Positions 26,953 to 31,613 of a stretch of DNA of 64,000 bases are shown here, piece by piece. The notes under the pieces are model-generated. The model did no database searches. It saw nothing but the letters and a program-made list of their open reading frames with translations, and had not been told where the DNA came from. Source of the DNA: Sphingorhabdus rigui (lineage in GTDB: Bacteria > Pseudomonadota > Alphaproteobacteria > Sphingomonadales > Sphingomonadaceae); NCBI RefSeq assembly GCF_014196595.1, contig NZ_JACIEA010000001.1:1110546-1174545 (forward strand), in the 5' to 3' direction. Position numbers and translations under genes: made by a program. Numbering within the stretch: the stretch's first letter is position 1; the number at the start of each line of letters is the position of its first letter.

Positions 26953-28152
26953 ATGAGCATAGCAGAAGAGATTATCAGGGTCGCAGCGCGCGGCGACGGC
27001 GTAACGGCCAATGGACGCTATGTGGCGCACGCAGCCCCGGGCGACATCGTCGATCCCGCAGGCGGTTTGATCCACGGACCGCATCATGCAACGCCGCCGT
27101 GCCAGCACTTCCCATTATGCGGCGGATGCCAATTGCAGCATCTCGACGAAGACAGCCTGCGCTTGTTTGCTGCAGAGCGCGTCACGCATGCGCTGGCGAC
27201 GCAGCAGGTCGAGATCGGAGAAGTCATGCCCGTCCATTTGTCTCCACCCGCCACGCGCCGACGCATTGCGGTCCGTTCGGCATGGGCCGGAAAGCAGTTT
27301 CAACTGGGCTTCAGCACCGAAAAAAGTCACCGTATCATAGACTTGCGACAATGTGATGTCGTGGTGCCGGAGCTATTCGCATTGCTTAAGCCATTGCGCA
27401 GCCTGCTGGAGCCACGGCTTAACCGCGCGCGTCAGGTTCAGATCAAATTGGCGATGGTCGATCAAGGCGTTGACGTATTGATTGAAAACTGGATCGCCAA
27501 CGATCTCGATACGCATGAGACCTTGTCGGAATTTGCGAAAACCTATGGCCTTGCCCGCCTGTCGCTGGATGAAGGCTACGGACCCGTTCCATTTTATGAG
27601 CCAGAGCCTGTTACCGTCACCCTTGGCGGTGTTGCTGTGGGGTACCAGCCTTATGGTTTCCTGCAGGCGACCGTGGATGGCGAGGCGGCACTGGTGCAGG
27701 CCGTAAATGACATTATCGGCGAAGATACCATCGTGGCGGATTTGTTTGCAGGTTCTGGGACATTTGCGCTGTCGATGGGCGCTGGACGAAAGATTTACGC
27801 AGGCGAGGCTGATCTTCAGGCCAGTCTGGCGCTCAAGGCTGCTGCAGGCCGTTCGGGCCGCACTATATTTGCGGAGCACCGTGACCTTTTCCGCCGGCCG
27901 TTATCGCCAGATGAACTGAACCGGTTCCAGACCGTCGTGCTTGATCCGCCGCGCGCAGGAGCAAAGGAGCAGGTGGCGAACCTTGCCGCTTCCACGGTTC
28001 CGTCGATTGCTTATGTCAGCTGTAATCCCGCGAGCTTTGCGCGGGATGCAAAAACATTGGTGGCCGCTGGATACAGGTTGCAGCGGATTTGGCCTGTTGG
28101 GCAATTCCGCTGGTCAACCCATATCGAGCTGGTTGGGCATTTCAGCCGTTAG
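26953..28152 (+). CDS. Class I SAM-dependent RNA m5U methyltransferase (TrmA/RlmD family)
   Basis: A 399-residue enzyme predicted to methylate C5 of uridine in rRNA or tRNA. An N-terminal TRAM-like segment is followed by iron-sulphur ligands CQHFPLCGGC and a fourth Cys in LRQCDVV. The methyltransferase domain has the SAM-binding VADLFAGSGTFAL, VVLDPPRAG and YVSCNPASFARDAKTL, where the Cys of SCNP is the expected catalytic nucleophile. The four-cysteine cluster favours the RlmD/RlmC side over TrmA, but the target base is not certain. It is the last gene of the run from ETF-QO and ends in a 4-nt convergent overlap with the first MAPEG gene. Confidence 0.92.
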   Translation: MSIAEEIIRVAARGDGVTANGRYVAHAAPGDIVDPAGGLIHGPHHATPPCQHFPLCGGCQLQHLDEDSLRLFAAERVTHALATQQVEIGEVMPVHLSPPATRRRIAVRSAWAGKQFQLGFSTEKSHRIIDLRQCDVVVPELFALLKPLRSLLEPRLNRARQVQIKLAMVDQGVDVLIENWIANDLDTHETLSEFAKTYGLARLSLDEGYGPVPFYEPEPVTVTLGGVAVGYQPYGFLQATVDGEAALVQAVNDIIGEDTIVADLFAGSGTFALSMGAGRKIYAGEADLQASLALKAAAGRSGRTIFAEHRDLFRRPLSPDELNRFQTVVLDPPRAGAKEQVANLAASTVPSIAYVSCNPASFARDAKTLVAAGYRLQRIWPVGQFRWSTHIELVGHFSR

Positions 28153-28592
28153 TGTAAAAGCACCGCCATTACGGCATGCGCGACGAGCATCATGAGTGCC
28201 AATGATGATAGTGCAAACAGTCCAAACCGAATGAGAACGCGGTTCGACAAAATTTGTACCAAGCTATGTGCGACACGAAGGCCGACATATACCCAAGCAA
28301 TCGTTGCGTTCAGATTGTCGCCCTGGCCAACCATGGCAAGTGTCAAACATACCGCATAAAACACCGTAGGTGCTTCATGTAAGTGATTGTAATTGTCTGC
28401 AACCCACGAGGCTTTTTCTTCGCCTTTGGCAGCTAGCGCATCGCGCAAGGCACCGGCGGAGGAACCGACAATCTTGCTTCCGTCAATCCCTGCGCGGTTC
28501 ATGGCGGGTATGCGCGTGGCATACATCCATATCCAGATAATCATCGTCCATGCCGCAAGCGCGACAACTGGTCCTAATATTGCACTATTCAT
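28149..28592 (-). CDS. MAPEG-family membrane protein (copy 1)
   Basis: A 147-residue protein with four predicted transmembrane helices, typical of the MAPEG group (microsomal glutathione transferase and relatives). The conserved block NYNHLHEAPTVFYA, followed by LAWVYVGLRVAHS-like sequence, matches the glutathione-binding side of the family. Enzymatic activity is not established for such bacterial members. The ATG at 28592 has GGAGA 6 nt upstream; a GTG at 28598 abuts that site. It is a clear paralog of the gene just upstream at 28628-29056 and probably forms one transcript with it. Confidence 0.9.
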   Translation of the reverse strand: MNSAILGPVVALAAWTMIIWIWMYATRIPAMNRAGIDGSKIVGSSAGALRDALAAKGEEKASWVADNYNHLHEAPTVFYAVCLTLAMVGQGDNLNATIAWVYVGLRVAHSLVQILSNRVLIRFGLFALSSLALMMLVAHAVMAVLLH

Positions 28593-28627
28593 ATCCACTC
28601 TCCCCTTAAAACAAATTCATAACATCT

Positions 28628-29056
28628 TCAGATCGTCGCCAGCAGCGCTTGAACTGCCAATATCGTCAGGCACAGGCTCGACAGCAGGAAAAATACGAAA
28701 CGTATTGCCACGGTATTGACCGTTGCCTGCCAAATGCTGTGGATCACGCGCAACACGGTATAGCCCCATGCCAGCGACACCGACAGCGATGTTGCCCCGC
28801 CGGAAATCGCAAGAATCATGATCGTTGCATAAAAGATGGTCGGTTGCTCCATCAAATGCGCGTAATTGTGCGATTTCCAGGCAACCGATGGTGATACATG
28901 CGGGTCAATATCCTGACCACGTCCGCCCGGTGCGGCCTTGCTAAGGTCCATGCCGATCTTCGACATTGCAGGAAGGCGCGTTCCAGCCATCCAGAAAAGC
29001 ATGATGATTGACCAGACGACCAAAGCCGCTGCTGGTGCTAAAATCGACGTATCCAT
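28628..29056 (-). CDS. MAPEG-family membrane protein (copy 2)
   Basis: A 142-residue four-helix membrane protein closely resembling the neighbouring copy: NYAHLMEQPTIFYA aligns with NYNHLHEAPTVFYA and LRVIHSIWQ with LRVAHSLVQ. The pair most likely arose by tandem duplication. The ATG at 29056 lies 8 nt after GGGAGGG, which forms the 3' arm of a 12-bp hairpin (29064-29092), so translation may depend on that hairpin. The gene follows the ornithine-type decarboxylase by 67 nt on the same strand. Confidence 0.9.
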   Translation of the reverse strand: MDTSILAPAAALVVWSIIMLFWMAGTRLPAMSKIGMDLSKAAPGGRGQDIDPHVSPSVAWKSHNYAHLMEQPTIFYATIMILAISGGATSLSVSLAWGYTVLRVIHSIWQATVNTVAIRFVFFLLSSLCLTILAVQALLATI

Positions 29057-29123: not shown

Positions 29124-30329
29124 TTATTGCGCGGACCGCTTGCCGATCTTCACAACATTGCTTGCGTCATTGGCGGGCAACTCGGCATAAAGGCTTGCCA
29201 TGGGTTCATCTTCGACCGGAACCGTGTCGGTCTCGCCAAAGCCGTTGAATTCGGTCCGCATCGCGCAGCCATATGCGCCCAGCATGCCGACTTCGATATA
29301 ATCACCGGCTTGCACGTCATCGGGAAGGATGAATGGCCCCGCCATATGGTCCATATCGTCGCAGGTAGGGCCGTAGAAGCTGAATTCTGCCATCTGGGTA
29401 CCAATTGACGTATCCGACCGTTGAAGCGCCACAGGGAAGCGCCAGCCGATATGTGCTGCATCAAACAATGAACCATAGGCACCGTCGTTGATGAACAGTT
29501 CTTGGCCACGGCGTTTTTCGACCTTCACCAGCAAGGACGCGTACTCGGCGCACAATGCACGGCCCGGCTCACACCATAGTTCGGCGGAATAGCTGATTGG
29601 AAGATCTTCGAAGCAATTGTGGATGACTTCAAAATAGCCCTCAAGCGCGGGTGGCTCCATGCCTGGATAGACCGATGGGAAACCGCCGCCGACATCGACA
29701 ATATCAACCGTGACAGACGCTTCAACGATAGCAGCACGCACATGCTCCATCGCCTCGGCATAAGCAGCCGGCGTCATGGCCTGACTTCCAACGTGGAAGC
29801 AAATGCCCAAGCTGTCGGCGACCTGACGGGTCGCAACCAACAGATCCGCTACTTCGGATGGATCTGCGCCAAATTTTGAAGCAAGGCTGAGTTTCGCATG
29901 CTCTGATGACACGCGGATACGCACGCATAGCTCGAGATCCGTAGCGCCATCGGTGGCACGCACGATCTTTTCCAATTCCTCATGGCTGTCGAGGCTGAAT
30001 GTGCGAACGCCATGGTTATGGTAAGCTTGCGCAATCGCGCGTTCGCTTTTCACAGGATGCATGAAGCACAGCTTCGCATCCGGCAGGAACTTGCTCACCA
30101 ACCGCACTTCACCAAGCGAAGCGACGTCATAATGGGTGATGCCCGCGTCCCACAAAGTTTCAAGCAATGCAGGCGACGGATTGGCCTTTACCGCGTACAA
30201 CGACTTACCCTGAAACTTCTCAACGAAGAACCGGGCGGCGCGCGAAGCGGCATGCGGGCGAAGGAGCGTGATAGGTTCGTCAGGGCGCTGGGCGCGGACT
30301 ACAGCTAGAGCGTCAAGATACTCGTGCAA
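29124..30329 (-). CDS. Type III PLP-dependent ornithine (or lysine) decarboxylase
   Basis: A 401-residue alanine-racemase-fold decarboxylase. It shows KSLYAVKANPSP with the PLP-binding lysine, the glycine loop DVGGGFPSVYPG, EPGRALCAE, and the substrate-pocket motif YGPTCDDMD, which is typical of eukaryote-like ornithine decarboxylases. The product, putrescine (or cadaverine), feeds the two spermidine genes directly upstream. No ATG exists near the N-terminus; TTG at 30329 is the most plausible start, and the frame upstream is open but not protein-like. A 129-nt structured leader precedes it. Confidence 0.9.
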   Translation of the reverse strand: MHEYLDALAVVRAQRPDEPITLLRPHAASRAARFFVEKFQGKSLYAVKANPSPALLETLWDAGITHYDVASLGEVRLVSKFLPDAKLCFMHPVKSERAIAQAYHNHGVRTFSLDSHEELEKIVRATDGATDLELCVRIRVSSEHAKLSLASKFGADPSEVADLLVATRQVADSLGICFHVGSQAMTPAAYAEAMEHVRAAIVEASVTVDIVDVGGGFPSVYPGMEPPALEGYFEVIHNCFEDLPISYSAELWCEPGRALCAEYASLLVKVEKRRGQELFINDGAYGSLFDAAHIGWRFPVALQRSDTSIGTQMAEFSFYGPTCDDMDHMAGPFILPDDVQAGDYIEVGMLGAYGCAMRTEFNGFGETDTVPVEDEPMASLYAELPANDASNVVKIGKRSAQ

Positions 30330-30458
30330 CTCAAGGGACCCCCAAAAAAAATAACGTGAAACAACAAGGCTGCCTTGCGGTTATTGGAAGTCCCCCTGGG
30401 GCAGCGGAGGCGTCCCTTATGAAAAGCAGGGGGCTATGTAAAGTGATTCGTTGCGTTT
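30330..30458 (-). promoter_or_regulatory. Structured leader of the ornithine-type decarboxylase gene
   Basis: On the minus strand CCCCCTG (30433-30427) can pair with CAGGGGG (30398-30392), enclosing AAGGGAC (30418-30412). That loop segment is complementary to GTCCCTT (30339-30333), just before the TTG start, which would give an H-type pseudoknot. A small hairpin CAAGG/CCTTG (30377-30365) and a T8G5 tract lie between. The pattern suggests cis-control of initiation; I cannot name a known riboswitch. Confidence 0.45.
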
Positions 30459-31613
30459 TTAGCTGAGCCGGTCCCTAAACTCGGTCCAGTCGAATGCGCG
30501 AACACATTCCAACGCGTCTGTTTCGCTGTTCCAAAGCCAGATGGACGGAAGCGGAACGCCGTTGAAGGTGTTCGTCTTCACCATCGAATAATGCGCCTGA
30601 TCAAGAAACGCGAAGCGCGCGCCGGCCTCTGCAGCGACCGGAAGGCGGTAATCACCGATGATATCGCCAGCAAGGCAGCTGGGGCCCCCCAGACGCACCG
30701 CAGGGCCGTCCTGAAGCTCGCCAAGCATCGCAGGGCGATAAGGTGCCTCAATGACGTCAGGCATGTGGCACGTCGCGCTGATGTCGGTGATACCGACGGG
30801 CAAACCATTTTCAAACACATCGAGCAGTTCGCCAATCAATATGCCGGTATCAAGCGCAATCGCTTCACCGGGTTCAAGATAGACGTCGAGGCCGGTTTCA
30901 GCGCGGACCTGCTGAATAAACGCAACAAGGTCGTCGCGTTGATAATCCGCGCGGGTGATGTGATGTCCGCCACCAAAGTTCAACCAACGCAATTGGCCAA
31001 AATAGGGCGCGATCTGGGGCTTCAGCGCCTCCCATGTGCGCTTGAGCGGTTCAAAATCCTGCTCACACAAGGTGTGGAAATGCAGACCGGACACGCCCTC
31101 CAAATGTTCTGGTTTGAGCTGGCTTACAGGGAAACCAAGGCGTGAACCAGGCGAGCAGGGGTCATATTTCGCAACTTCGCCCTCGGCATGTTCGGGGTTG
31201 AGCCGAAGCCCAACATCGACGCTGTCATTCAGGAATGCCGCAAAACGTGTATGCTGGCTGGGGCTGTTGAAAATGACATGATCAGAAATCTCGACGATTT
31301 CGGCCATGTCGGCTTCTTTATAGCCAGCGCAATAGGTTGCGATCTCGCCTTTATAATAATCGCGGGCAAGGCGCGATTCCCACAGGCCTGAACTGCACAC
31401 GCCATCGAGATATTCACCAATGACGGGCGCAACTTTCCACATGGAAAACGCCTTCATCGCGCACAGGATTTTCGCACCGGACCGTGCTTTTACATCCGCG
31501 AGAATAGCAAGGTTCCGCCGCAGCGCCGCTTCATCGACGACAAATGCCGGCGATGGAACGCGATGCAGGTCGAAATGCGCAAATGCGCCAGGATCACCAG
31601 CTTTGGTTTCCAT
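30459..31613 (-). CDS. nspC: Carboxynorspermidine/carboxyspermidine decarboxylase
   Basis: This PLP enzyme of 384 residues decarboxylates carboxy(nor)spermidine to (nor)spermidine. It is of the alanine-racemase-fold type: PAFVVDEAALRRNL at the N-terminus, the PLP lysine in ILCAMKAFSMW, LNFGGGHHITRADY, YLEPGEAIALDTG and the late GPSCLAGD with the cysteine that reaches the partner active site. The ATG at 31613 overlaps the stop of the upstream synthase as TAATG, so the two are translationally coupled. Open frame to 31733 is only synthase sequence in another phase. With the synthase and the downstream decarboxylase it completes a SAM-independent spermidine route. Confidence 0.94.
   Translation of the reverse strand: METKAGDPGAFAHFDLHRVPSPAFVVDEAALRRNLAILADVKARSGAKILCAMKAFSMWKVAPVIGEYLDGVCSSGLWESRLARDYYKGEIATYCAGYKEADMAEIVEISDHVIFNSPSQHTRFAAFLNDSVDVGLRLNPEHAEGEVAKYDPCSPGSRLGFPVSQLKPEHLEGVSGLHFHTLCEQDFEPLKRTWEALKPQIAPYFGQLRWLNFGGGHHITRADYQRDDLVAFIQQVRAETGLDVYLEPGEAIALDTGILIGELLDVFENGLPVGITDISATCHMPDVIEAPYRPAMLGELQDGPAVRLGGPSCLAGDIIGDYRLPVAAEAGARFAFLDQAHYSMVKTNTFNGVPLPSIWLWNSETDALECVRAFDWTEFRDRLS

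Follow-up and report, generated by a model that had tools for sequence, protein, structure and literature searches.

The ornithine decarboxylase (ODC) gene of Sphingorhabdus rigui is preceded by an RNA leader that is a real element, conserved throughout the Sphingomonadaceae. Compared with the published text description, rather than with a letter-by-letter consensus, this leader is very probably a member of the odc1 (uORF-25-1) motif (PMC8632094), and thus not new, and with the same high probability it acts by translational control, which would most likely operate through masking of the Shine-Dalgarno sequence and a choice between two adjacent UUG start codons.

Results

Locus and reach of the leader

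Within the window, by which we mean the whole stretch of 64,000 nucleotides analysed, the ODC gene begins at a UUG codon, and no in-frame ATG, GTG or TTG was found upstream of this TTG (30329-30327), so that positions 30458-30330 are noncoding for ODC. The original prediction had named both the non-AUG start and, as the observation that would speak against it, a start further upstream; the former stands.

29124-30329, minus strand: ODC gene with the second UUG as its start (Pfam PF02784/PF00278; UUG start kept in orthologues)
30327-30409, minus strand: core of the putative odc1-motif RNA, including the ODC start codon (single model match; DNA conservation in 146 of 150 family genomes)

ODC is preceded by two genes, one of the saccharopine-dehydrogenase fold (carboxynorspermidine-synthase-like) and one for an nspC-like decarboxylase. 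Two adjoining genes of the MAPEG family (PF01124) follow it on the 3' side (28149-29056, minus strand), and 55 of 80 named relatives, the closest of which are Sphingorhabdus and other Sphingomonadaceae, likewise have MAPEG genes on that side. In 43 of these 80, nspC lies upstream on the same strand as ODC, so that read-through from nspC is possible; it is absent from the flank in 36.

A DNA search with positions 30480-30100 (minus strand) as the query matched the leader in 146 of 150 Sphingomonadaceae genomes and 94 of 96 genera, the matches typically extending from about 30410 into the ODC gene; in genus g75, the two genomes that have no leader match also have no close ODC homologue. From the relatives 138 leaders were extracted, and 73 sequences, that of the window among them, were aligned and used to build a covariance model (R1). 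The model has one match in the window (30409-30327, minus strand; 85.2 bits, E=2e-25, the window sequence being part of the model's 73) and one in each matching genome. At 23 of the 25 match loci examined ODC follows directly, the other two being weak chance matches outside the Sphingomonadaceae. When the class was searched, 7 of 385 genomes matched, of which five are Sphingomonadaceae; the remaining two (G217 and G571) lack an adjacent ODC and have E-values of about 5e-4, near the chance number expected across 385 genomes. All matches in the order belong to members of the family, and no convincing copy was found outside it in the sampled genomes of the order or class.

Two crossing helices

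The constant part of the element reads GCUGCC-CC-A-(G)GGGACUUCC-..-ACCGCAA-GGCAGC-linker-GG(G/A)GGUCCC-UUG-A(G/A)-UUG or, condensed to a consensus, GCUGCC..GGGACUUCC..CCGCAAGGCAGC..GGRGGUCCCUUGANUUG, and it contains two helices that cross each other, GCUGCC/GGCAGC and GGGACUUCC/GGGGGUCCC (GGRGGUCCC in relatives).

30400-30405, minus strand: pseudoknot strand GCUGCC, partner 30374-30369
30386-30394, minus strand: 5' strand of the stem, GGGACUUCC, pairing with the Shine-Dalgarno strand
30375-30380, minus strand: inter-stem loop CCGCAA, almost invariant (near-invariant alignment columns)
30369-30374, minus strand: pseudoknot strand GGCAGC, partner 30405-30400
30335-30343, minus strand: 3' strand of the stem, GGGGGUCCC, with the Shine-Dalgarno sequence (GGGGG; GGAGG in many relatives; from alignment and pairing counts)

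The T8G5 tract to which the original prediction drew attention does lie just 5' of GTCCCTT and the TTG start (30329-30327); its T8 is a variable linker, and its G5 is the Shine-Dalgarno sequence, GGAGG or GGGGG in relatives. At least eight of the nine GGGACUUCC/GGGGGUCCC pairs can form in 96% of 133 leaders versus 3.7% when the loop is shuffled, sliding the partners by one to three columns lowers the share of paired cells from 94% to 41-61%, and the Shine-Dalgarno variant GGAGG stands opposite UU in 35 of 35 cases. Two-sided covariation was seen in none of the nine pairs of this stem, where free covariation is barred by the Shine-Dalgarno sequence on one strand, which barely varies. What supports the predicted stem is pairing frequency together with one-sided changes, not two-sided covariation. 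The pseudoknot helix GCUGCC/GGCAGC has all six pairs in 128 of 133 leaders and has undergone compensatory changes, from U-A to A-U in five genomes (GCAGCC/GGCUGC) and from C-G to U-A in G085 (GCUGCU/AGCAGU). The original prediction of a pseudoknot in the leader where ODC translation starts thus agrees with these crossing helices; across the leaders the two helices first proposed are not supported, and compensatory changes occur in GCUGCC/GGCAGC instead. In five leaders (L043, L085, L092, L106 and L112) an extra, hairpin-forming insert separates the first pseudoknot strand from GGGAC, and the loop 3' of that strand therefore tolerates insertion.

Folding energy is uninformative, at z=0.19 for the whole leader and no more than z=-1.28 for single-sequence folding of the core. 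RNAalifold favours a different helix, in which CAAGG pairs with CCUUG and the first UUG would be masked; CAAGG is present in 101 of 109 sequences, both strands are nearly invariant, and pairing is retained in six of eight variant sequences. In the window the corresponding local hairpin CAAGG-CAG-CCUUG (30377-30365, minus strand) would rival the pairing of the pseudoknot strand. Stems equivalent to it, with at least four pairs, occur in 58% of leaders versus 9% of shuffles, a comparison that ignores kinship and is suggestive of such competition.

Dual starts and a decoy ORF

The sequence TTG AG TTG at 30334-30327 places two UUG codons 5 nt apart, with 2 nt between them, a spacing shared by 137 of the 138 extracted relatives (L137 has 1 nt between). 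Reading from the first UUG gives a short decoy.

30305-30334, minus strand: decoy ORF opened by the first UUG, LSCTSILTL (9 codons) followed by TAG, overlapping ODC out of frame

It runs to 11 codons in 129 of 138 leaders, to nine in seven and to ten in L137, and a stop by codon 12 is lacking solely in L107 (the decoy ends of the last two leaders were read by eye from their sequences); among leaders with standard spacing, a stop at or before codon 12 was counted in 136 of 136. The nine-codon decoys belong to the window and four congeners, which gained a TAG at codon 10 and kept the old one at codon 12 (the ancestral TAG is still present in the window at 30301-30299), and, separately, to L073 and L140 in two other lineages.

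The decoy stop is formed by the third base of ODC codon 10, which is A in 104 of 110 genomes versus 4.8 expected from ODC codon usage, the genomes being related and not independent trials. The amino acid at codon 10 varies among Val, Leu and Ile, the stop varies among TAG, TGA and TAA, and after synonymous recoding the first decoy stop falls at codon 12 in 10% only. Because stop type and amino acid change while the place stays fixed, the stop appears to be selected and not merely inherited, and this pattern of codon choice leads us to conclude that it is under strong selection, a feature that is new here. The variable end of the peptide, taken with the fixed stop, suggests that the position at which the ribosome stops translating the decoy counts for more than the peptide made. 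We infer that ribosomes at the decoy stop and at the main start would be about 25 nt apart, near one footprint. The third bases of ODC codons 2, 5, 9 and 11 in relatives also depart from ODC codon usage; at codon 5, T occurs in 94 of 110 genomes versus 28 expected.

In G085 (L174/L263) both UUGs have become AUG (GGAGGUCUC AUG AG AUG) with the 11-codon decoy kept, and the starts read GUG-AA-UUG in two genomes from a different genus, likewise with an 11-codon decoy. Both start codons, as read from these genomes, can change yet remain starts, which is also new here.

Two further leaders have lost parts of the element. G176 (L069/L173) has lost its 5' half and retains GGGGGUCCC-UUG-AG-UUG together with the 11-codon decoy stop, and so offers a natural test of a dual start without the pseudoknot. 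L107 (G164), with a decayed core and two UUGs left but without the codon-12 decoy stop, is a natural partial loss of the element.

A predicted promoter

Conserved columns upstream of the core point to a promoter.

30437-30442, minus strand: -35 element TTTACA of the predicted ODC promoter (conserved columns -37 to -32 from the first pseudoknot strand)
30416-30421, minus strand: predicted -10 element CATAAG, TATA-like in relatives (conserved TATA columns -15 to -11; 10 nt before the core)

In most leaders the -10 element ends 8-10 nt 5' of the core, and ODC is predicted to have its own conserved promoter directly 5' of the element. The original view of ODC as simply the last gene of an nspC operon does not agree with this promoter or with the 36 of 80 relatives whose flank lacks nspC. 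Many relatives (L051, L070, L099, L113, L119, L130, L133, L136 and others) have a G run, often GGGGGGAC or GGGGGGU, right after the TTTACA; such a run in the promoter spacer could be an operator.

Discussion

The odc1 motif, in the text of its 2021 description (PMC8632094), has its ribosome binding site on the right-hand strand of a long stem, as in GGGACUUCC/GGGGGUCCC; a pseudoknot that joins the 5' end to the loop, as in GCUGCC/GGCAGC with its compensatory changes; strictly conserved bases just 5' of the pseudoknot strand, as in CCGCAA; and two UUGs 2 nt apart, as in TTG AG TTG. That text also places it in Sphingomonas, with a short overlapping uORF and, downstream, ODC followed by pfam01124 genes, a neighbourhood common to the window, where PF02784 is followed by two PF01124 proteins. 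It differs in the decoy, which in the window has nine codons, whereas the uORF is described there as having 11 codons without length variation, as observed on 272 sequences. Decoy length does vary, and the published generalisation fails. We nevertheless file the window as odc1, since uORF length is an observation and not part of the definition, and the nine-codon members keep all else.

All 4227 Rfam families were searched, across the window with the gathering score as threshold and within 30000-30700 with E<=10, and gave chance matches only. In SAM-II and preQ1-II riboswitches, too, a pseudoknot buries the Shine-Dalgarno sequence; the present leader differs from them in having no Rfam match and in its dual start codons. 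The speF motif RF00518 (PMC1273637), to which the original prediction had pointed, is likewise an alphaproteobacterial leader 5' of ornithine decarboxylase, but it is a long bulged stem-loop of other sequence. It was rejected, as it has no match in the window or the genome (gathering cut-off 37 bits), and real speF matches elsewhere have no recognisable core in common with the leader.

Translational control, which the original prediction had proposed, is the best reading of the leader as its sequence stands. According to our model, transcription from the gene's own promoter would start at the 5' edge of the element, near 30409. The stem GGGACUUCC/GGGGGUCCC would then bury the Shine-Dalgarno sequence and reach the first UUG, with the pseudoknot GCUGCC/GGCAGC forming around CCGCAA. 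With the stem closed, both starts would be blocked; with the stem open, initiation at the first UUG would yield the short out-of-frame decoy, which terminates at the selected stop some 30 nt into the gene, and initiation at the second would yield ODC. The element would thereby set ODC synthesis through access and start choice, and a small molecule of ornithine or polyamine metabolism may drive the switch. Counting against the model are the stem's zero two-sided covariation, the different helix favoured by RNAalifold, the modest folding score of the core, and the leaders of G176, which keeps both UUGs and the decoy stop without the 5' half, and L107. The present analysis contributes the conservation of structure, both starts, the selection on the decoy stop, the promoter and the restriction to one family. 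In E. coli reporters, as described in PMC8632094, both UUGs initiate, and three mutations of conserved bases abolish expression of the main ORF, two of them sparing the uORF.

A more specific form of this model, to which we give somewhat less than an even chance, holds that the pseudoknot is locked when ornithine, putrescine, spermidine or a similar compound occupies a CCGCAA pocket. A metabolite riboswitch is one of the possibilities listed in the text of the odc1 authors (PMC8632094), and it would fit the compact pseudoknot, the almost invariant loop, the sequestered Shine-Dalgarno sequence and the strict association with ODC. However, the E. coli reporters in that text gave modest expression only, with an effect of the medium on both starts, and a proven spermidine riboswitch, which resembles this leader in controlling polyamine genes, has an unrelated aptamer, a SAM-I-type variant that acts via transcription termination (PMC10853860); the paper describing it does not mention the odc1 motif.

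Alternatively, the decoy ORF itself could be the sensor, its nascent peptide or its termination causing a polyamine- or ornithine-dependent ribosome stall. SpeFL and the mammalian AMD1 uORF are known to stall ribosomes in this way in their polyamine or ornithine response. A stop position fixed under apparently strong selection would be expected on this account, as would the constrained third bases of ODC codons 2 and 5, which keep Thr4 and Leu/Ile7 of the peptide. We nevertheless regard it as improbable, given that residues 9-11 vary (R/P/H/L, W/R/G and L/G/P) and that three lineages have nine codons only, which argues for selection on the end of translation more than on the peptide. Still less likely is that the pseudoknot serves as the binding site of a protein, be it ODC or some other RNA-binding protein; a lineage-specific partner would fit the restriction to one family.

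The H-type pseudoknot first proposed, CCCCCTG/CAGGGGG with AAGGGAC/GTCCCTT, can practically be dismissed, exact as its complementarity is in the window, because its outer stem of 7 bp forms in 8 of 133 leaders, all from the window's genus, with 8.3% expected from shuffles, and because its upstream strands lie between the predicted -35 element and transcription start. All four strings are indeed on the minus strand (CCCCCTG 30433-30427, AAGGGAC 30418-30412, CAGGGGG 30398-30392, GTCCCTT 30339-30333), but CCCCCTG falls between TTTACA and the -10 element and AAGGGAC, whose exact strand is confined to the window plus four close congeners, overlaps the latter. Both being within the promoter, neither is expected in RNA from the gene's own promoter; they would occur in nspC read-through transcripts and could have a minor role there. 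The conserved structure does include GTCCCTT and a portion of CAGGGGG, albeit with other partners. The original prediction had picked up a genuine signal but assigned it incorrect pairings.

Taken together with our model of Shine-Dalgarno masking and start choice, these findings raise the tentative idea, which we consider doubtful rather than probable, of a new class of riboswitch, responding to ornithine or a polyamine, that steers the ribosome between starts 5 nt apart and has the termination point of the decoy as part of the device. The candidate is still absent from Rfam, and its selected decoy stop, together with start-codon changes that keep the architecture, makes this orphan riboswitch candidate a source of clean test targets. 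If the idea were true, ODC, the entry step of polyamine synthesis, would be controlled in the Sphingomonadaceae via a choice between adjacent starts, which would be unusual in bacteria.
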